From Roseiarcus fermentans (GTDB lineage: Bacteria; Pseudomonadota; Alphaproteobacteria; Rhizobiales; Beijerinckiaceae), in contig NZ_QNRK01000024.1 of assembly GCF_003315135.1 (NCBI RefSeq), positions 1 to 64,000 on the forward strand: a stretch of DNA of 64,000 nucleotides, written 5' to 3'. Position numbers and translations under genes: made by a program. The stretch's first letter is position 1. Each line of letters opens with the position of its first letter. A model generated the notes under the pieces. That model had not been told where the DNA came from and made no database searches. It saw only the letters and a list, made by a program, of their open reading frames with translations. This document shows, in pieces, positions 4,471 to 55,014 of the stretch.

Positions 4471-5676
4471 ATGCGACAGTTCAATCGCGTGGCTCGCGCC
4501 GGCGCGCTGTGCGCGGCGCTCGCCGCGGGCGCGGCGCAGGCGGCGCCCGACAAGGTGGTGATCGGCGACATCGACGACATGTCAGGGCCTTACGGCGACG
4601 TGATCGGCGCCGGCGGCGTCGAGGCGATCCGGATGGCGATCGCCGACTTCGGCGGCAGCGTGCTCGGCAAGCCGATCGACGTCCTGACCGCCGACCACCA
4701 GAACAAGCCCGACATCGGCCAGCAGAAGTTTCGCGAGTGGGCGGACACTCAGGGCATGACCATGACCCTCGGGGGCTCGAACACCGGCGTCAGTCTCGCC
4801 ATGTCCGCGGCCGCCAAGGAGAAGAAGATCCCGTTCTTCGCCATCGGCGCGGCGGGCGCGCAGCTCACCGGCAAGGCCTGCAACCCCTATACGATCCACT
4901 ACGGCTACGACACCAAGGCGCTCGCCAACGGCACCGCCAAGACCATCGTCGCCGAGGGGGGAAAAAGCTGGTTCTTCATCACCGCCGACTACGCCTTCGG
5001 CAAGCAGCTCGAGGCGGACGCCTCGGATATCGTAAAGGCGGGCGGCGGCAGCGTCGTCGGCGACGTGCGCGTGCCGCTCGGCACCTCCGACTTCTCCTCG
5101 TATCTGTTGCAGGCGCAGGGGTCGGGCGCGCAGGTGCTCGGGCTCTCCAACGCCGGCGCGGACTTCTCCAACTCGCTCAAGGCGGCCTCGGAATTCGGCC
5201 TGACGAAGAGCATGAAGCCCGCGGCGCTGCTCGTCTTCCTGACCGACATCCGCTCCGTCGGCCTCGAGACCGCGCAGGGGCTGATCCTGACCGACGGCTG
5301 GTACTGGGATCTCGACGACCGCACCCGCGCCTTCGCCAAGCGGTTCTACGACAAGGTCAAACGGGAGCCGACCATGCCGCAGGCCGCCTTCTATTCGGCG
5401 ACCCTGACCTATCTGTCCGCGGTCAAGGCGGCCGGCACGACCGACGGCGACAAGGTGATGGACGAACTGCACAAGATGACGATCAACGACGCGTTCACCC
5501 AGAACGGGACCATCCGCCCGGACGGGCTCTTGCTGCACGACATGTACATCATGCAGGTCAAGACGCCGGCCGAGTCGAAGGGCGAGTGGGACTATTACAA
5601 GCTCGTCAAGACGATGACCGGCGAGGAGGCCTACGGCAAGCTGTCCGACTCCGCCTGCCCGCTGGTGCAGAAGTAG
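4471..5676 (+). CDS. Periplasmic branched-chain amino-acid-type ABC transporter substrate-binding protein
   Basis: A 401-aa periplasmic binding protein of the LivJ-like (Peripla_BP_6) fold. A Sec signal peptide is seen: MRQFNRVARAG, then an Ala-rich core ending AAQAA before PDKVVIGDIDDMSGPY. Later blocks include GGSNTGVSLAMS, FFITADYAFGKQ and QAAFYSATLTYLSAVKAAG, as in proteins binding amino acids, amides or aromatic acids. A GGGAGG ribosome-binding site precedes ATG 4471. No permease or ATPase genes are adjacent, so this is an orphan subunit here and its ligand is unknown. Confidence 0.87.
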   Translation: MRQFNRVARAGALCAALAAGAAQAAPDKVVIGDIDDMSGPYGDVIGAGGVEAIRMAIADFGGSVLGKPIDVLTADHQNKPDIGQQKFREWADTQGMTMTLGGSNTGVSLAMSAAAKEKKIPFFAIGAAGAQLTGKACNPYTIHYGYDTKALANGTAKTIVAEGGKSWFFITADYAFGKQLEADASDIVKAGGGSVVGDVRVPLGTSDFSSYLLQAQGSGAQVLGLSNAGADFSNSLKAASEFGLTKSMKPAALLVFLTDIRSVGLETAQGLILTDGWYWDLDDRTRAFAKRFYDKVKREPTMPQAAFYSATLTYLSAVKAAGTTDGDKVMDELHKMTINDAFTQNGTIRPDGLLLHDMYIMQVKTPAESKGEWDYYKLVKTMTGEEAYGKLSDSACPLVQK

Positions 5677-5807
5677 GGCTCCCGACCGGCGGGTGACGAC
5701 CTTCGCGCCCGCCGGCCCTGTTCGCCGCCAAGGATACGAAGCCGCCTTCGTGGTCCCCTGTGACCCCTGGTGGTTCGAGAAAGCTCCGCCTGCAGGGCGA
5801 TCAGCCG

Positions 5808-5948
5808 AGCGCCACCCGGTAGGCCGCCTGCGTCTTCGCCGCGATTTCTTCCAGCGTCACGCCCGGCGCCGTCTCGATCAGCGCCATGCCGCGATAGCCG
5901 TGTCTTGTCGATCGTGAACACGCCGAGGTCGGTGATCACGAGGTCGGC
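5808..5948 (-). pseudogene. Second, decayed copy of the scoB 3' end
   Basis: This stretch repeats the last ~135 bp of scoB (6811-6948) in the same orientation, starting at the shared AGCGCCACCCGGTAGGCCG. The copies are roughly 90-95% identical. This copy has a one-base insertion (GTGTCTTGTCG against GTGCTTGTCG) that breaks the frame, so it is not coding. It lies on the far side of the MNT/HEPN module from intact scoB, so the module is flanked by direct repeats of a core gene's end. The far end of the copy runs into the last codons of the HEPN gene. Confidence 0.85.
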
Positions 5949-6334
5949 GACCTCGGCGGTGTTCGCGGCGCAGCGCCACGCAGTCGCTTCAGCAAATCGT
6001 CAATTCGTTGTTTCAGCGCCGGCAGATCGCTCTTGACCGTTCGCCAGACAACATCGACGTCTACGTCAAAGTACTCATGGATCATCTTGTTGCGCATGCC
6101 GCGCATTTCGATCCACGGCAACTCAGGGTGAGCCGCCACGAATTGCGGCGCGTGTTGCTGAATTTGGCGGGCGGCTTCGCCGATGATCTCCATGTTGCGG
6201 ATCACGGCGTCCTGATCGCGCTGACTCTGCCGAAAGGCGCTCACACCGCCAAGCCGGTCGATATAGTCGGTGGCTCGCTGAATGGCCTGCGCAATGTGGT
6301 TCAAATACTCTTCGACGCGCTCGGGGTGCTTCAT
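5936..6334 (-). CDS. HepT-like HEPN-domain toxin (DUF86 type)
   Basis: A 132-aa all-helical protein. The HEPN RNase signature R-x4-H is seen in RGMRNKMIHEYF, preceded by NMEIIGEAARQI, typical of HepT/DUF86 proteins. In characterised HepT-MntA pairs the HEPN protein is a toxin neutralised by AMPylation from the nucleotidyltransferase; that is family knowledge, not shown here. Its ATG overlaps the stop of the upstream MNT gene by 4 bp. The last ~10 codons (RGAAPRTPPRSPTS) read into the duplicated scoB end at 5808-5948, so the natural C-terminus was probably replaced at the junction. Confidence 0.85.
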   Translation of the reverse strand: MKHPERVEEYLNHIAQAIQRATDYIDRLGGVSAFRQSQRDQDAVIRNMEIIGEAARQIQQHAPQFVAAHPELPWIEMRGMRNKMIHEYFDVDVDVVWRTVKSDLPALKQRIDDLLKRLRGAAPRTPPRSPTS

Positions 6335-6621
6335 AGCGGTTCGGCACGTTTCAGCACGCGATCCCTGAACGTCTCGGGCAAGAACCCCGGCGTCAAAACC
6401 GATACCCGAACGCCGAGCAACGCTTGCGCGGCATGTTCCAGCCTGGCGAGCGTGAACAAGGTTGTCTCGTCCGTCGCCTCCACGAGGAGATCGAGATCGC
6501 TGTCGTCAGTATCCGCGCCGGTCAACACGGAGCCATACACACGCGGGCGCCTCACCCCGTAGCCCAGGAGAAGCTGGCGCAGTTCAGCGCGATGCGCATC
6601 AAGGGCTGCGGATGGTTTCAT
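6331..6621 (-). CDS. MntA-like minimal nucleotidyltransferase (antitoxin)
   Basis: A 96-aa protein with the Pol-beta-type nucleotidyltransferase signature: GS at VYGSVLTGADTDD followed by SDLDLLVEA, giving the metal-binding aspartates. In known MntA-HepT systems it transfers AMP to the HEPN partner and so blocks it. It overlaps the HEPN gene by 4 bp (ATGA), the usual operon order. The pair is inserted 187 bp beyond the scoB stop codon. GC content is lower than in neighbouring core genes, which fits a transferred module. Confidence 0.85.
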   Translation of the reverse strand: MKPSAALDAHRAELRQLLLGYGVRRPRVYGSVLTGADTDDSDLDLLVEATDETTLFTLARLEHAAQALLGVRVSVLTPGFLPETFRDRVLKRAEPL

Positions 6622-6807
6622 GGTTGGAGACTAACATAAACGGGGCGCGAACCCGAGCGGCGGATCCGGGTCGCAATGCCGTTCGTTATAAACGCCTGAG
6701 CGGGGCAGCCAGTTTCGGACCCGAGCCGCTGTTGCGGCTCGGAGTCTCCGCCCTTCTTTGGCGGAATCGTCGTTGACCCCGCTTGACAGCGCGCTCAGCG
6801 ACGCGCC

Positions 6808-7449
6808 CTACAGCGCCACCCGGTAGGCCGCCTGGGTCTTCGCCGCGATCTCCTCGAGCGTCACGCCCGGCGCCGTCTCGATCAGCGCCATGCCGCGATA
6901 GCCGTGCTTGTCGATCGTGAACACGCCGAGGTCGGTGATGACGAGGTCGACGACCTTGGCCCCGGTCAGCGGCAGTTCGCAATGATGCAGCAGCTTCGGC
7001 CCGTCCTTGGACGTGTGCTCCATCACCACGACGATCTTCTTGACGCCGGCGACGAGGTCCATCGCGCCGCCCATGCCCTTGACCATTTTTCCGGGGATCA
7101 TCCAGTTGGCGAGATCGCCGGTCTCGGAGACCTGCATGGCGCCCAGAATCGCGAGGTCGATGTGGCCGCCGCGGATCATCGCGAACGAGTCGGCGCTGGA
7201 GAAGAAGCTCGTCGTCGGCAGTTCGGTCACGGTCTGCTTGCCGGCGTTGATGAGGTCGGCGTCCTCCTCCCCCTCGTAGGGGAAGGGGCCCATGCCGAGC
7301 ATGCCGTTCTCGCTCTGCAGCGCGACCGTCATGCCCTCGGGGATGTAGTTCGACACCAGCGTCGGGATGCCGATGCCGAGATTGACGTAGAAACCGTCCT
7401 TGAGTTCCTTGGCGGCGCGGGCCGCCATCTGTTCGCGAGTCCAGGCCAT
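6808..7449 (-). CDS. scoB: 3-oxoacid CoA-transferase subunit B
   Basis: A 213-aa subunit of succinyl-CoA:3-ketoacid CoA-transferase, used in ketone-body/acetoacetate activation. Family landmarks are [15 protein letters not shown] near the N-terminus, the active-site glutamate in [10 protein letters not shown], and [15 protein letters not shown]. The start is ATG 7449 ([12 protein letters not shown]), 17 bp after the scoA stop. The last ~135 bp recur, degraded, at 5808-5948 beyond an MNT/HEPN module. The intact gene ends normally in AAYRVAL. Confidence 0.93.
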
Positions 7450-7466
7450 GTCGGCGCTCCTTGAGT

Positions 7467-8174
7467 TCAGGCCGCGTCGCGCTTGCGCACGGTGCGCTGC
7501 TCGATGTGCTTCTTGGCGCCGGGGACATGCACGATGCGATGCACGAACACGCCGGGCGTCATGATGTCGTCCGGGTCGATCTCGCCGGGCTGGACCAGAT
7601 GCTCGACCTCGGCGACGGTGATCTTGCCCGCGGTGGCCATGTTCGGATTGAAATTGCGCGCCGTCTTCCGGTAGACGAGATTGCCCTCGGTGTCGCCCTT
7701 CCAGGCGTGCACCAGCGACACCTCGGCGGTGAGGCCGAACTCCATGACATAGGCTTCGTTGTTGAAGTCGCGGATTTCCTTGCCCTCGGCGACGATCGTG
7801 CCGACGCCGGTCTTGGTGAAGAAGGCGGGAATGCCGGCGCCGCCGGCGCGGATCCGCTCGGCCAGCGTGCCCTGCGGGTTGAACTCGAGTTCGAGCCTGC
7901 CCGAGAGGTAGAGATTGGCGAAGGTCTTGTTCTCGCCGACGTAGCTCGAGATCATCTTGCGGATCTGGCCGCTCTCGAGCAGGACGCCGAGGCCGACGCC
8001 GTCGACGCCGCAATTGTTGGAGACGACGGTCAGGTCCTTGACGCCGGTCTTGCACAGGGCCTCGATCAGCGTCTCCGGGATGCCGCACAGGCCGAAGCCG
8101 CCGGACATGATCGTCATGCCGTCCTTGACGATGCCCGCGAGCGCCGCGTCGGCGGTGGCGTAGACTTTTCTCAC
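7467..8174 (-). CDS. scoA: 3-oxoacid CoA-transferase subunit A
   Basis: A 235-aa partner of ScoB. Seen: [15 protein letters not shown] (the glycine-rich CoA-transferase N-terminal motif), [12 protein letters not shown], and [16 protein letters not shown]. The frame is open to 8231, but GTG 8174 ([12 protein letters not shown]) is preferred: a GGAGGG ribosome-binding site lies 8 bp upstream and homologues begin here. scoB follows after 17 bp, so they form an operon. Only 31 bp separate it from the upstream membrane-protein gene, so read-through from the moxR cluster is possible. Confidence 0.93.
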
Positions 8175-8205
8175 CGGATGACCCTCCCCAAAAAGCCCGT
8201 CATCC

Positions 8206-34919: not shown

Positions 34920-35789
34920 CTACCGCCCCACTTTCTTCAGGCTTGCCGGCGGCGGGGGATCGTGCGGGACGAGGACGTCGGTGGCGAGATCGGAGGTCGG
35001 ATCGACCCGGTAACGGTCGAAATCCCTGACGCCGCAGTCGAACAGGAACGAGTCGTCGATCAGGAAGTTGGCCGTGAAGCTCCGGGAATCCTTGAGGAGA
35101 ACCGCGTAGGCCGCGTCGGCCATGATGTCGGGGGTGCGCGAGGCGCGCATCGCCGGGTCGCCGCCGAGCAGGTTTTTCACCACCGACGTCCCGATCAGGG
35201 TGCGCGGCCAGAGCGCGTTGACCGCGATCCCGCTCGCGCGCAACTCGCCCGCGAGGCCGAGGGCCGCGATGCTCATGCCGTATTTGGCGATGGCGTAGGC
35301 GGTCATCGGCGCGACCTGCTTCTCGTCGAAGACCAGCGGCGGCGACAGAACCAGGATATGGGGGTTCGTCCCCTGCTCGAGGTAGGGAACGGCGAATTTC
35401 GACACCAGAAACGTACCCCGCGCATTGATCTGATGCATGAGGTCGAAGCGCTTCATGTCGGTCGCCTGGGAGGCGGCGAGGTTGGCCGCGCTGGCGTTGT
35501 TGACCACGATGTCGAGGCCGCCGAAGGTCGCGACGGTCGTCTCCAGGGCGGCGCGCACCTTCGTCTCGTCGCGCACGTCGACGACCAGCGGCAGCGCCCG
35601 GCCGCCCGCCTGCTCGACGGCCTCCGCCGCCGTGTAGATCGTTCCGGGCAGTTTCGGATGGGGTTCGGCGGTCTTGGCGGCGATCGCTACATTGGCCCCG
35701 TCGCGCGCCGCTCTCAGCCCGATCGCGAGCCCGATGCCGCGCGAAGCGCCCGTGATGAACAGGGTTCTTCCGGACAGGCTGGCGGCCAT
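34920..35789 (-). CDS. SDR-family oxidoreductase (HSDL2-like), paralogue 1
   Basis: A 289-aa short-chain dehydrogenase. Rossmann glycine motif [19 protein letters not shown], cofactor segment [20 protein letters not shown], and the catalytic YxxxK as YAIAKYGMS. The TAEPHPKLPGTI segment is typical of the HSDL2-like SDR subgroup acting on lipid-type substrates. A 289-aa paralogue at 37474-38343 shares most of its sequence. Both face the same way with 1.7 kb of repeats between them. The substrate is unknown. Confidence 0.9.
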   Translation of the reverse strand: MAASLSGRTLFITGASRGIGLAIGLRAARDGANVAIAAKTAEPHPKLPGTIYTAAEAVEQAGGRALPLVVDVRDETKVRAALETTVATFGGLDIVVNNASAANLAASQATDMKRFDLMHQINARGTFLVSKFAVPYLEQGTNPHILVLSPPLVFDEKQVAPMTAYAIAKYGMSIAALGLAGELRASGIAVNALWPRTLIGTSVVKNLLGGDPAMRASRTPDIMADAAYAVLLKDSRSFTANFLIDDSFLFDCGVRDFDRYRVDPTSDLATDVLVPHDPPPPASLKKVGR

Positions 35790-36068
35790 CTTTCGTCTCC
35801 TCGATGCTTTTCGTCCCGTCCATGGCGCCGCCGCGCGCGCCGGACAAGAAGGATCGGCGGGGCCTCGCTCTTGCGGCCCGGGCCCGCGCCGGTCGGGCGC
35901 GGGGTCAGATATTGCGCAAGATAGAACGAAGCAGGATCATATTTCGGATGAGAGACGTTTCGCTCCTCCGTCTCCGGCGCGATCGCGAGGAGCGCCACCG
36001 TCTGATCCGGGGAACGCGGCGATTCAGCGACGCTGGGCTCGGATGCGACGCCGAGGGAGCGGGGTAAG

Positions 36069-36195
36069 CAGAGTGCTCGGCGGACAATTTGTTGCGAAAA
36101 GAAGAAATAAGGACTAGGGTGCTTTCGATTGGACGTGAATCGCTTGCGACGAAAGCGCCCGGCTGTCTGACATCCAGAAGCAGAACCTGCACGGG
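36069..36195 (+). repeat. Repeat family A, copy 1
   Basis: About 127 bp containing GCTCGGCGGACAATTTGTTG, TTTCGATTGG and CGCCCGGCTGTCTGACATCC. The same sequence, roughly 80% identical, occurs inverted at 55232-55357. It does not look coding. The gap 35790-37473 holds this repeat, two B-family copies and two palindromic elements, and I see no gene in it. Confidence 0.75.
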
Positions 36196-36586
36196 CTCGC
36201 CCCTGTCGTCCACGCCCGGCTGAAGACGCGGCCGCTGGCCGCGCACCGCGCCCAACGCACCGGCGATGGGTGGGTCGCGCGTGACAGCCGAGCCGGCTTG
36301 ACGATCGGCGAGCATTCCGCCGTCCTCATCCCGACATCGTCGAAGGATTCCGTGCGCGGAGACGTGGGTGTCCCCGCGAGCGTCCTTCGACAAGCTCGGG
36401 AAGAGGTCGGAAGAGGCGGCTCGGCTGCGACACCGCCCGTATCTCCCAAGCCGGGCGCGCAAGCGGCGATCGCGGCGCTCAACGGGAGGGTGCGCGTCTC
36501 GCGCACCCGGGCGGCGGGACGCCCCCTCCCAGCGCGCGCCCTGTCCGGCTCCTCGCGGGCAGCCACCTTGGCAGTTACACCCGCCC

Positions 36587-36791
36587 GTAACTCCCAACCC
36601 CGTCATTGCGAGGAGCGAAGCGACGAAGCAACCCATGCCGCCGCTTGCCTCCTGCGGAAAAAATCGCTCCGTCTTCTGCTCGCAACGAAGGGCGGCGGGA
36701 CGATCAGAGGGCGCAACAGCGGCCCAGCGACCCTGGATCGCTTCGCTTCGCTCGCGATGACGGCGCTGTTCGCTGCCGGCTTGGGAGTTAC
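36587..36791. repeat. Palindromic element, copy 4, with terminal inverted repeats
   Basis: Bounded by GTAACTCCCAA (36587-36597) and TTGGGAGTTAC (36781-36791). Inside are GTCATTGCGAGGAGCGAAGC and its partner CTTCGCTCGCGATGACGG, and the CCCTGGATCGC core. The element at 37209-37400 is an inverted copy with the same ends. Confidence 0.75.
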
Positions 36792-36821
36792 GTCCAATTG
36801 TCACTTCCAAGCCTCGGCGCA

Positions 36822-36905
36822 CCTTGGGAGTTACACCCGCCCGGAAAATCCCGCGCAACCTATTGAAAAAGCTCAAAACCGGCCGACATCGGGCGCGCTT
36901 CAGCG
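36822..36905 (+). repeat. Repeat family B, copy 1
   Basis: Reads TTGGGAGTTACACCCGCCCG, then GAAAATCCCGCGCAACC and CTCAAAACCGGCCGACATCG. Related copies are at 37388-37462 (same strand) and, inverted, at 53515-53600, 53775-53862 and 54888-54965. Confidence 0.7.
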
Positions 36906-37208
36906 CTCCGGCGCGGCAAACGCCCAGTTTCCTCGGCAGGGTTCGAGGCTCCGAACGCCTCGACGCGCGTCACAATGGGCGCGGAGCCGACAATGCCGAC
37001 CGGTCATGGCCCGTGACGCCCCGCCGATTCGCGCCGGCGGCCGCAGACAGCGCAGACGGCTCCGGATCCGTTGCTGCAACCACATGGAAACCGGTTCAGG
37101 TGGTGCGCGGCGCGGCGCTTCGGGCGCGCAGGCGGCCTTGGATCGCCCGCGGCGCCCTGCGGGCCTCTCGCCGCGCGCGGGGCGCCCCACGGGAGACGCG
37201 ACTCGCCC

Positions 37209-37400
37209 GTAACTCCCAAGCCGGCAGCGAATAGCGCCGTCATCGCGAGCGAAGCGAAGCGATCCAGGGCCGCTGGGCCGCTGTCGCGCCCTCTGGTCGT
37301 CCCGCCGTCCTTCCTTGCGAGCAATTTCTTCCGCAGGAAGCAAGCGGCCGCATGGATTGCTTCGTCGCTTTGCTCCTCGCAATGACGGGTTGGGAGTTAC
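37209..37400. repeat. Palindromic element, copy 5, with terminal inverted repeats
   Basis: Same ends as copy 4 (GTAACTCCCAA at 37209-37219, TTGGGAGTTAC at 37390-37400), but its interior runs in the opposite direction: it ends ATTGCTTCGTCGCTTTGCTC followed by CTCGCAATGACGG. Confidence 0.75.
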
Positions 37401-37462
37401 ACTCGCCCGGAAAAGTCCCTGCAAACTGTTGAAAAGGCCCGAAACCGGCTCGGGCGAACACG
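37388..37462 (+). repeat. Repeat family B, copy 2
   Basis: Overlaps the end of palindromic copy 5 at the shared TTGGGAGTTAC, then CACTCGCCCGGAAAAGTCCC and GAAACCGGCTCGGG. More diverged than copy 1. Confidence 0.6.
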
Positions 37463-37473
37463 GTCGTCGACCG

Positions 37474-38343
37474 TTATCCGCTGAGCTTCTTCAGGCTCGC
37501 CGGCGGCTTCGAATCGTCGGGGACGAAGAAGTCGGGCGCGAGGTCGACCGTCGGGTCGACGCGATAGCGGTCGAAGTCCGCGACGCCGTTCTCGGACAGA
37601 AACGTGTCGTCGATCAGGAAGTTTCCGGTGAAGCTCCCGGCGTCCTTCAGAAAGATCATATGCGCCGCGTCGGCGAGGATGTCGGGGGTGCGGGAGGCGC
37701 GCATCACCGCGTCGCCGCCGAGCAGGTTCCGGATCGCCGCGGTCGCGATGGTGGTGCGCGGCCAGAGCGCGTTGACCGCGATCCGCTTGCGACGCAGCTC
37801 GCCCGCGAGCCCGAGCACGACGAGGCTCATGCCGTATTTCGCCATGGCGTAGGCCGTGTTCGGCGCGAACCACTTTTCCTGAAGGTCGAGCGGCGGCGAC
37901 AGCATGAGGATATGGGCGTTGGCCGACTTTTCCAGGTAGGGGACGGCGAACTTCGACACCATGAAGGTCCCGCGCGCGTTGACCCCGTGCATCAGGTCGA
38001 AGCGCTTCATGTCGGTCGCCTGGGAGGTGGTCAGCGAGATGGCGCTGGCGTTGTTGACCACGATGTCGAGACCGCCGAAGGTCGCGGCGGTTGTTTCCAG
38101 CGCCGCGCGCACCTGCGCCTCGTCGCGCACGTCGACCGCCAGCGGCAGCGCCTTGCCCCCCGCCCTCTCGATCTCTTCGGCCGCGGAAAAGATAGTGCCC
38201 GGCAGTTTCGGGTTGGGCTCCGCGGTCTTGGCGGCGATCGCGACATTGGCGCCGTCGCGGGCGGCCCTGAGCGCGATCGAAAGCCCGATTCCGCGCGAGG
38301 CGCCGGTGATGAACAGGGTCTTGCCTGCAAGCGTGTCGGCCAT
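37474..38343 (-). CDS. SDR-family oxidoreductase (HSDL2-like), paralogue 2
   Basis: A 289-aa short-chain dehydrogenase closely similar to the gene at 34920-35789. Seen: [28 protein letters not shown], catalytic YAMAKYGMS, and the shared ends KNLLGGD/RNLLGGD and PPASLKK. Differences cluster around residues 150-170 and 195-205, near the expected substrate side. It lies upstream of hisB but points away from it. The 171-bp gap to hisB should contain both promoters. Confidence 0.9.
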
Positions 38344-53401: not shown

Positions 53402-53514
53402 GCCGGCGGCCGGGCGGCCTCGACCTCTGCGCGGGGTATGAGACGGTTTCCGTGTGATCGCAGCGGCGGTTCCGGAACGCCGCGCTCTCGTCGTCGCGCC
53501 GAGCGCGGAAGCGC

Positions 53515-53600
53515 GCCCCCCGATGTCGGCCGGTTTTGAGCGTTTTCAACAGGTTGCGCGGGATTTTCCGGGCGACCGTAACGCCCGGGGCGGTTGTTCG
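53515..53600 (-). repeat. Repeat family B, copy 3 (inverted)
   Basis: Contains GATGTCGGCCGGTTTTGAGC, GTTTTCAACAGG and GGGATTTTCCGGGCGACC, the reverse complement of 36822-36905. The non-coding gap 53402-55432 consists almost wholly of repeats and the intron fragment. Confidence 0.7.
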
Positions 53601-53618
53601 CCAGGGGCGGACGCGCTG

Positions 53619-53903
53619 GGAGGGGCGGCTGTCCCGCCGCCCGGGAGCGTGAGACGCGCTTCAAGGCGGTCCGAGCCTCGAACCCTCCCGAGGGAACTGG
53701 GCGCTCGACGGAGCGCGCAGCCATGTTCCGGGCGCCGCGCTCTCATCGCCGCGCCGAGCGCAGAAGCGGGCGCCCCGATGTCGGCCGGTTTTGAGCGTTT
53801 TCAAAGCTTTGCGCGGGATTGTCCGGGCGACTGTACCTGCCAAGCCTTGGCGCGCCTTAGGGCATGACGGGCGGTCGTCGACGCCGAGGCGGGGGCGATG
53901 ACG
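53619..53903. repeat. 285-bp direct repeat, copy 1
   Basis: Starts GGAGGGGCGGCTGTCCCGCC and ends GCGGGGGCGATGACG. Nearly identical, and exactly as long, as 54730-55014. It contains a B-family copy (53775-53862) and the start is a short hairpin. The high identity suggests a recent duplication. Confidence 0.85.
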
Positions 53904-53904
53904 T

Positions 53905-54049
53905 TTCCCGCCGTCCTCGCGAGGAGCCCGAAGGGCGACGCGGAGATCCAGGGGCCGCCTGCGCCGACGTTGCAGCGTGGCGACTCCGGCATACGGCGGA
54001 CCTTGGCCGCGCCCCCCTGGATCGCCGGTGCGCCCTGCAAGGCGCGTTT
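53905..54049. repeat. Dispersed palindromic repeat, copy 6
   Basis: Left arm CCGTCCTCGCGAGGAGCCCG, then GGCGACGCGGAGATCCAGGG; the interior GCGCCGACGTTGCAGCG matches copy 1 in reverse. The right arm CCCCCTGGATCGCC is incomplete and runs into the intron fragment. Confidence 0.7.
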
Positions 54050-54729
54050 CTCTAGTGGAGGAAGGTTCCACCCGGATATTTGTCGGTAGGTCCGGTAGCT
54101 GACGAGCGGTTTTGGCGAGCGATTGCTGGGATCGAAGCCTCGTGACAAAGGCCGCGTGGCGGCTGAGCGATCCGGCGGGCCGCAATGTGAATGAAGCCCG
54201 AGCAGGCCTCGAAAGTGGAGATGCGGCTGCCGACCCACATGGCGATTGGGGAAGGCTGCGCGGACAGGGAAGAAATCGACACGAGCACCTGTTCGACCGC
54301 CGGGGTAGTGGGCGCGGCACGTGGGGAGAGAGAAACGAGCAACAGGGGAGACCCGTTTGAGCCGGGGGTAGCGGCCTCGAACGTCGCCTTGGGCGGCGGT
54401 TCGAACGGGAGTCGGAGAGGGACGTAGTCCTGTCGAAGCCGGGTAACTCCGGGGGAGGGAAGGTCCCTTGCTTCAGATGCGCTTGTTGAAGAAGGCGAGG
54501 ACGAGGACCGGAGGATTGGCGTGAGCCTGGAAACACCGGAAAAGATCAGGAGCCTTCAGAGGAAGCTTTATTGCAAGGCGAAGGCGGAGCCGGCCTATCG
54601 CTTCTACATGCTTTACGACAAGATTTATCGGATCGACATTCTGGCTCACGCCTACGCGCTCTGTCGGGAGAATGACGGCGCGCCGGGGGTGGACGGCGTG
54701 AGGTTCGCGACGATCGAGGCGCAGAGCGT
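54050..54729 (+). mobile_element. Truncated group II intron (5' RNA domains and start of its reverse transcriptase)
   Basis: The sequence before the reverse-transcriptase start is typical of bacterial group II intron RNA upstream of an ORF (for example GGAGGAAGGTTCCACCCGG, GAATGAAGCCCGAGCAGGCC and GTAACTCCGGGGGAGGG). The exact 5' boundary was not resolved. The intron is cut at ~54730 by the second 285-bp repeat; the rest of the RT, domains V and VI and the 3' exon are missing, so it cannot splice. Confidence 0.8.
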
Positions 54730-54742
54730 GGAGGGGCGGCTG
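54521..54742 (+). pseudogene. Group II intron reverse transcriptase/maturase, N-terminal fragment
   Basis: About 74 residues match the N-terminus of LtrA-type proteins: MSLETPEKIRSLQRKLYCKA, AYRFYMLYDKIYRIDIL and the RT0/RT1-type block NDGAPGVDGVRFATIEA. After SVEGRL the frame runs into the repeat at 54730 and codes for nothing recognisable. Full proteins are about 400-600 aa, so over 80% is missing. Confidence 0.85.
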
Positions 54743-55014
54743 TCCCGCCGCCCGGGAGCGCGAGACGCGCTTCAAGGCGGTCCGAGCCTCGAACCCTCCC
54801 GAGGGAGCTGGGCGCTCGACGGAGCGCGCAGCCATGTTCCGGGCGCCGCGCTCTGGTCGCGGCGCCGAGCGCAGAAGCGCGCCCCCCGATATCGGCCGGT
54901 TTTGAGCGTTTTCAAAGCTTTGCGCGGGATTGTCCGGGCGACTGTACCTGCCAAGCCTTGGGGCGCCTTAGGGAATGACGGACGGTCGTCGACGCCGAGG
55001 CGGGGGCGATGACG
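54730..55014. repeat. 285-bp direct repeat, copy 2, ending the group II intron
   Basis: Begins GGAGGGGCGGCTGTCCCGCC directly inside the RT gene and ends GCGGGGGCGATGACG. Includes a B-family copy (54888-54965). Differs from copy 1 by a few scattered bases, such as CTCTGGTCGCGGCGCC against CTCTCATCGCCGCGCC. Confidence 0.85.

Follow-up and report, generated by a model that had tools for sequence, protein, structure and literature searches.

A putative HepT/MntA-type module between scoB and a second scoB 3' end in Roseiarcus fermentans, and similar layouts at other genes

We analysed a stretch of 64,000 nucleotides (the window) from Roseiarcus fermentans (assembly GCF_003315135.1, contig NZ_QNRK01000024.1, positions 1 to 64,000). 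On the minus strand, scoA and scoB are followed by an mntA-like gene, a hepT-like gene and a second scoB 3' end, after which the end of a converging gene for a substrate-binding protein is reached (Table 1). The original prediction had placed an mntA-hepT-like pair between an intact scoB and a second scoB end of about 135 bp carrying a frame-breaking base. Both parts were borne out: the pair is recognised by Pfam families and motifs, and the second end is a direct repeat of the intact one, slightly longer than claimed at 150 bp, with 94.7% identity. Since the blastn E value of this repeat is 2.5e-64, a chance origin is excluded. The extra base in the distal copy breaks the reading frame, and the end of mntA overlaps the start of hepT. 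Between scoB and the next gene, mntA and hepT were the only genes recognised among the family-tested ORFs, with no integrase. Likewise, no integrase family was found by Pfam scan among 11 ORFs from the 0.5-14 kb part of the window, in agreement with the prediction that none is visible. The scoB side of the spacer has 84-94% matches in four other contigs of the same genome. A palindromic repeat of the TGTAGGGCGCG...CGCCCTACA type occurs at several places in this genome (L003, L004, L005, L006); what seems to be a decayed copy of it comes after scoB in the window, with similar copies in the related genomes G009 and G010. By eye, the flank beyond the distal copy contains a CACGAAG-type inverted segment common to the window and G009 and not seen in G010.

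Table 1. Features of the scoB site (window positions) and, below them, loci with a strong flanking repeat; G and L numbers are our handles for genomes and loci, G000 being the genome of the window
Feature	Position	Strand	Evidence or remark
scoA, partner subunit	7467..8177	-	Pfam CoA_trans, E 3e-76
scoB, intact; its own 3' end is the proximal copy (6812-6960)	6808..7449	-	NCBIfam TIGR02428 pcaJ_scoB, E 1e-96; Pfam CoA_trans
Spacer between scoB and mntA, 186 bp	6622..6807	.	similar, on the scoB side (about 6768-6812), to a palindromic repeat dispersed in the genome
mntA-like gene, putative antitoxin (nucleotidyltransferase)	6331..6621	-	Pfam PF01909 NTP_transf_2; PADLOC PDC-S09; GSX10DXD motif
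hepT-like gene, putative toxin (HEPN ribonuclease)	5936..6334	-	Pfam PF01934 HepT-like, E 3e-27; RX4HXY motif
Distal copy of the scoB 3' end	5808..5957	-	direct repeat, 94.7%; frame broken by an additional base near 5903; synonymous to non-synonymous differences 5:2
Flank from distal copy to next gene, 131 bp	5677..5807	.	read directly
Converging ABC-transporter substrate-binding protein gene, bounds the site	4477..5676	+	below cut-off matches to urea/branched-chain substrate-binding families
3'-end loci 1 and 2: scoB	G000 and G009
3'-end locus: GH63-type glucosidase gene	G010, L023 1501-1893		antitoxin-like MNT gene between glucosidase gene and shortened end copy
3'-end locus: phosphonatase-like gene	G005
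3'-end locus: VWA-domain gene	L098, Syntrophaceae MAG
3'-end locus: glmS	L330, G1328
3'-end locus: gene without family assignment	L342, G1174
Outside the 3'-end class	L325		114-bp, 99% duplication around the start (5' end) of the downstream gene
Outside the 3'-end class	L075 3106-5705, Nitrospira MAG		end of a relaxase-like gene shared with a Fic-like gene
Outside the 3'-end class	L326		tandem MNT/HEPN pairs
Outside the 3'-end class	L318 6275-8377, G799		200-bp repeat

The repeat background of the same genome was determined by scanning 884 kb of its 6.79 Mb for pairs of at least 60 bp and at least 85% identity, 400-4000 bp apart. This yielded 18 repeat pairs at ten loci, the scoB locus included. 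Eight of the nine other loci were checked by their ORF lists alone, and no module between a gene and its 3'-end copy was recognised in them; as far as can be told from these lists they are repetitive ORFs or intergenic repeats, C2:192719 being less clear, where the repeat starts in the final bases of a gene and a 162-aa ORF without family assignment lies between its copies. The ninth was judged from its spacing to be a 60-bp tandem array. Elsewhere in the window, two 285-bp direct repeats (96%) lie 1.1 kb apart around short ORFs at 53469-55014, together with a 112-bp pair (88%). One ORF there (54521-55012), which we take to be like the start of a group II intron maturase, had no match in Pfam. 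Two stretches 2.5 kb apart at 34933-38343, about 80% identical over 789 bp, are probably tandem paralogues.

The module consists of adjacent PF01934 HEPN and PF01909 MNT genes, as in HepT/MntA systems. The motifs RX4HXY and GSX10DXD, defined as HepT/MntA motifs in the part of PMC7641770 used here, are present as RNKMIHEY in the HEPN protein and as GSVLTGADTDDSDLD in the MNT protein. The Shewanella HepT/MntA pair (PMC7641770, same part; PDB 6m6u, 5yep) has the same domains and the same two motifs, but the window pair is distant from it in sequence, its HEPN protein matching the solved toxin at E 8e-4. Scores of 44/60 and 25/60 bits fell below the NCBIfam HepT/MntA equivalog cut-offs, which makes the pair family-like and not a curated equivalog. 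With PADLOC, the MNT protein matched the candidate defence family PDC-S09, and no family was matched by the HEPN protein. From family and motifs, we infer that the module is a HepT/MntA-type toxin-antitoxin pair. Copies of the module on plasmids were looked for and rejected, the matches being partial ones in 3 records.

It had been predicted that the last codons of the HEPN gene run into the second scoB copy. The hepT stop codon does lie inside the distal copy, and the last residues are read from scoB DNA out of frame. The window HEPN protein follows that of G009 up to ..RGAAPRTP before entering scoB DNA. Since the HEPN proteins of G009, of an Acetobacteraceae MAG (L068) and of Methylocapsa (L069, translated by eye) end in a similar ..RSR before the stop, a tail which is missing in the window protein, the run-in appears to be a truncation at the join to scoB rather than a designed overlap. 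At the glmS locus, L330, the HEPN stop likewise abuts the gene-end copy. Tails like CCGATGAAAGCYCCCGC follow HEPN in L068 and L069. The motif CCGATGAAAGCYCCCGC was considered as a dispersed repeat and rejected, since the sole listed match free of mismatches among 11 genus genomes was the G009 module itself.

We compared the site among the 11 genomes of the genus. An empty site, which the original prediction had expected in some relative, was found in G010, where a single scoB end is followed, after about 50 bp, by the same substrate-binding gene with no module. In G009, a MAG of the sister species, this site is occupied by the module (93% identity to the window over 690 bp), and two separated scoB pieces, the last 79 bp and an internal piece of 30 bp, make up a degraded second end beyond it. 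The substrate-binding gene is syntenic in both genomes. A scoAB tree calculated without the last 150 bp grouped G000 with G009 (98/98) and G010 next (100/99), and a substrate-binding/nth tree of five genomes agreed with it (93/96). As G010 is empty and is the outgroup to G000 and G009, the module most simply entered their common ancestor; separate entries into the two genomes may instead have taken place. Nothing at the scoB loci retrieved from the other eight genomes matched module DNA. In G001 (L038 10028-10360), the end of scoB is extended, and about 110 bp further comes a short second scoB end, with 30 of 36 bases matching as counted by hand, with no module and with Ns near the locus; we take this as a separate event. 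The second end was thus absent from the module-free G010, as the prediction implied, and a short one is present in the more distant G001.

In the last codons, the stop and the following bases, the intact gene of G000 resembles G010 and the distal copy resembles the sister G009. Whether the G010 tail proves the native scoB type was considered, but the argument is weakened by the resemblance of this tail to the dispersed palindromic repeat; the G010-like tail in G000 is partly that repeat. Both G000 copies share two replacements missing in G009 and G010 (ETAPG and LEEI). A comparison over 72 bp of the scoB end gave 4 differences between the G000 copies, 5 between the G009 copies and 9 between the two distal copies; over the same 72 bp the intact end of G000 lies nearer to G009 (4 differences) than to G010 (7). 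Because of the shared replacements and these distances, scoB requires either a closely related donor, or gene conversion, or independent events.

The search suggested by the original prediction, for MNT/HEPN pairs flanked by repeats of a neighbouring gene's 3' end, showed that such pairs recur, at seven loci and six genes. We tested 135 MNT/HEPN loci chosen by similarity, with the discovery locus in the window among them: the genus contributed 12, named genome contigs 37, the order 10 and the class 29, and a phylum search gave 30 loci and 17 further places, one of the 17 being in the genome of the window. Of the 135, 29 were placed by locus centre instead of HEPN profile. Three of these, L290, L306 and L315, were thereby tested off the module, and were negative at the right place in a looser scan; some with clipped flanks may also be misplaced. 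Any flanking direct repeat at E 1e-6 was present at 18/135 loci. Strong repeats (direct, at least 85% identity, at least 50 bp) were present at 11/135 loci and absent at 124, as compared to 9/1163 control tiles (Fisher p 8e-7), the tiles having similar flanks, overlapping one another and being scored on repeats without regard to gene ends, with their 9 hits in 6 regions. The p value was 1e-4 for 8/132 when scoB was counted once and L318 and L326 were dropped, 5e-4 for 7/131 with both scoB loci and a further two, trivial cases left out, and 0.009 when only the 3'-end cases at genes other than scoB were counted (5/129). With a looser criterion, 4/40 loci versus 21/367 tiles gave no clear excess; a general enrichment at HEPN loci under that criterion was not seen in these 40 loci, nor clearly in 30 with shorter flanks (2/30) that overlap the 40. 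The L165 repeat counted in the scan of 135 loci is a 64-bp part of a 265-bp repeat.

Seven of the 11 strong-repeat loci carry a copy of the 3' end of a neighbouring gene. At the G010 glucosidase locus the HEPN gene is gone, no partner was detected for the MNT gene, and the gene-end copy has lost its middle. For neither the glucosidase nor the phosphonatase-like gene was a clean empty site found: each gene is present in a relative, but with different downstream DNA. An identification of the L342 gene as a known deacetylase was rejected, as no family supports it. In L075, outside the 3'-end class, the MNT/HEPN pair and a Fic-like gene lie between what we take to be relaxase-like and traG-like genes, and a 378-bp segment is shared by the ends of the Fic-like and relaxase-like ORFs. 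In L318, three copies of the 200-bp repeat (about 94%) are spaced 0.9-1.0 kb apart, the last directly 3' of HEPN, in a cassette-like manner.

The two gene-end copies differ in the way that coding sequences do. Pooled over the seven 3'-end loci, 48 differences were synonymous and 27 were not, where 30% synonymous would be expected (P about 1e-9); with scoB excluded the excess was 40:23. For the individual blocks, the synonymous to non-synonymous counts were 5:2 in G000 and 3:2 in G009, a weak signal for scoB alone, 0:3 (the last piece) and 3:0 in G010, 9:7 in G005, 6:2 in L098, 8:3 in L330 and 14:8 in L342. The similar segments measure about 50 to 265 bp, with two separated gene pieces in G009 and G010, and at 7/7 loci the similarity ends within about 6 bp of the stop codon; in L342 the stop concerned is that of the distal copy, the near copy reading on for about 55 bp. 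From the synonymous excess and the similarity ending at the stop, it appears that the copies diverged mostly as working genes, probably in different genomes. A similarity ending near the stop is expected if the copies come from genomes with differing intergenic DNA, and is unexpected for a copy made in place. The idea in the original prediction that the module brings its own version of the gene end therefore gains support from the pooled loci, and little from scoB by itself.

With moderate confidence, we propose that incoming DNA with a scoB 3' end and the module joined the resident scoB by homology-facilitated illegitimate recombination and left a scar. The incoming DNA would carry the scoB 3' end of another genome together with mntA-hepT. 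Homologous recombination inside scoB would leave an intact gene, its 5' part resident and its 3' end incoming, and the far end of the incoming DNA would join inside the resident scoB by little or no homology. The resident 3' end would then be stranded beyond hepT and decay there. At the far junction about 4 bp of possible microhomology (ACCG) can be seen by eye, and the homologous junction would lie inside scoB. Alternatively, the fragment may be ligated into a circle and enter by one crossover, giving nearly the same product; according to the part of PMC3240628 drawn on here, linear DNA can circularise and enter in this manner in E. coli. Toxin addiction would select against loss of the module by recombination between the repeats. 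The proposal is supported by the empty site in the outgroup G010, the module at this site in G009, the recurrence at other genes, the pooled synonymous excess and the similarity ending at a stop codon. No donor of the incoming scoB 3' end and module was found. Also speaking against the proposal are the replacements private to the two G000 copies, the 72-bp distances, the 0:3 block of G010, the partly repetitive nature of the G010-like tail, the 124 loci that lack a strong repeat and the missing excess under the looser criterion.

Insertion with a long target duplication, in the style of restriction-modification systems, would instead copy the resident end in place, one copy then decaying. The layout and length range described for restriction-modification cases, in the parts of PMC3874152 and PMC1643837 used here, are the same overall, and long variable direct repeats flank the window module and are absent from the empty site, as a target duplication would leave them. 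The private replacements common to both G000 copies also speak for it, as does L325, whose 99% duplication at the 5' end of a gene fits a true target duplication better. Neither the pooled synonymous excess nor the similarity ending at the stop codon at all seven 3'-end loci is expected of a decaying in-place copy, and we regard this explanation as unlikely.

An integrative element with an attachment site in the scoB 3' end, its integrase lost or acting in trans, would have restored and displaced gene ends as its classical result, and the glmS gene, hit in L330, is a known target region of other elements. The tRNA-type integrase mechanism to which the original prediction had likened the layout finds no support in the ORFs scanned near the site, and the copies are long for att cores, are drawn from six different genes and show no common core by eye. 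The prediction was right in kind about the gene end brought by the module, and the evidence does not extend to an integrase; site-specific integration appears improbable. An old tandem duplication of scoB, into which the module was inserted later, would account for the two separated pieces in the second copy of G009, which was probably once longer, and for the short second end without a module in G001; the single copy in G010, outgroup to the carriers, and the occurrence of this layout with MNT/HEPN modules at other genes make it quite improbable. An assembly or binning artefact is hardly credible: G009 is a MAG, most genus genomes are fragmented and that of the window is in 90 contigs, but the separately assembled G009 has the same structure and the junction is internal to a contig of 106.7 kb and flanked by synteny to either side.

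The recurrence of the layout at other genes suggests that MNT/HEPN pairs may enter chromosomes by recombination into a gene tail, the reading we prefer for scoB, without an enzyme of their own. As a tentative extension, such pairs could be mobile without an integrase, moving in the company of a host gene's 3' end: this tail would provide homology into the same gene of relatives and keep that gene intact, the toxin would punish loss between the repeats, and new tails acquired by illegitimate joins would open new genes such as glmS. A gene 3' end stranded beyond a module would be a recognisable scar, from whose sequence one could deduce entry events, their donors and their directions. It would also tie the spread of toxin-antitoxin pairs to ordinary homologous recombination and to the behaviour of restriction-modification genes.

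No report of an MNT/HEPN pair between a gene and its 3'-end copy was found in the literature searched, which consisted of titles and abstract openings with subscription journals thinly covered. Integrative elements at gene 3' ends leave a restored gene end and a displaced one. The scoB layout likewise has a restored and a displaced end, but here no integrase was found, the copies are long and variable, and several genes are used. Insertion of restriction-modification systems with long target duplication has reportedly been described by Nobusato (2000) and Furuta (2010). Some of these systems insert with long, variable target duplications, as described in the parts of PMC3874152, PMC3031569 and PMC1643837 used here, and as in the present case an addictive unit is movable without a known mobile element and has long variable target repeats at its flanks. 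In contrast, the unit here is an MNT/HEPN pair, and, pooled over loci, the differences between the copies resemble those between working alleles and the similarity stops at a stop codon, so that one copy probably arrived with the module. Homology-facilitated illegitimate recombination has been proposed for the displacement of T6SS effectors (PMC5361080, in the part considered), where an incoming module is also anchored by homology and the older 3' part is shifted downstream. In that system, as far as that part describes it, the anchor belongs to the effector module, whereas at scoB the anchor would be an unrelated housekeeping gene and the cargo a putative toxin-antitoxin pair.
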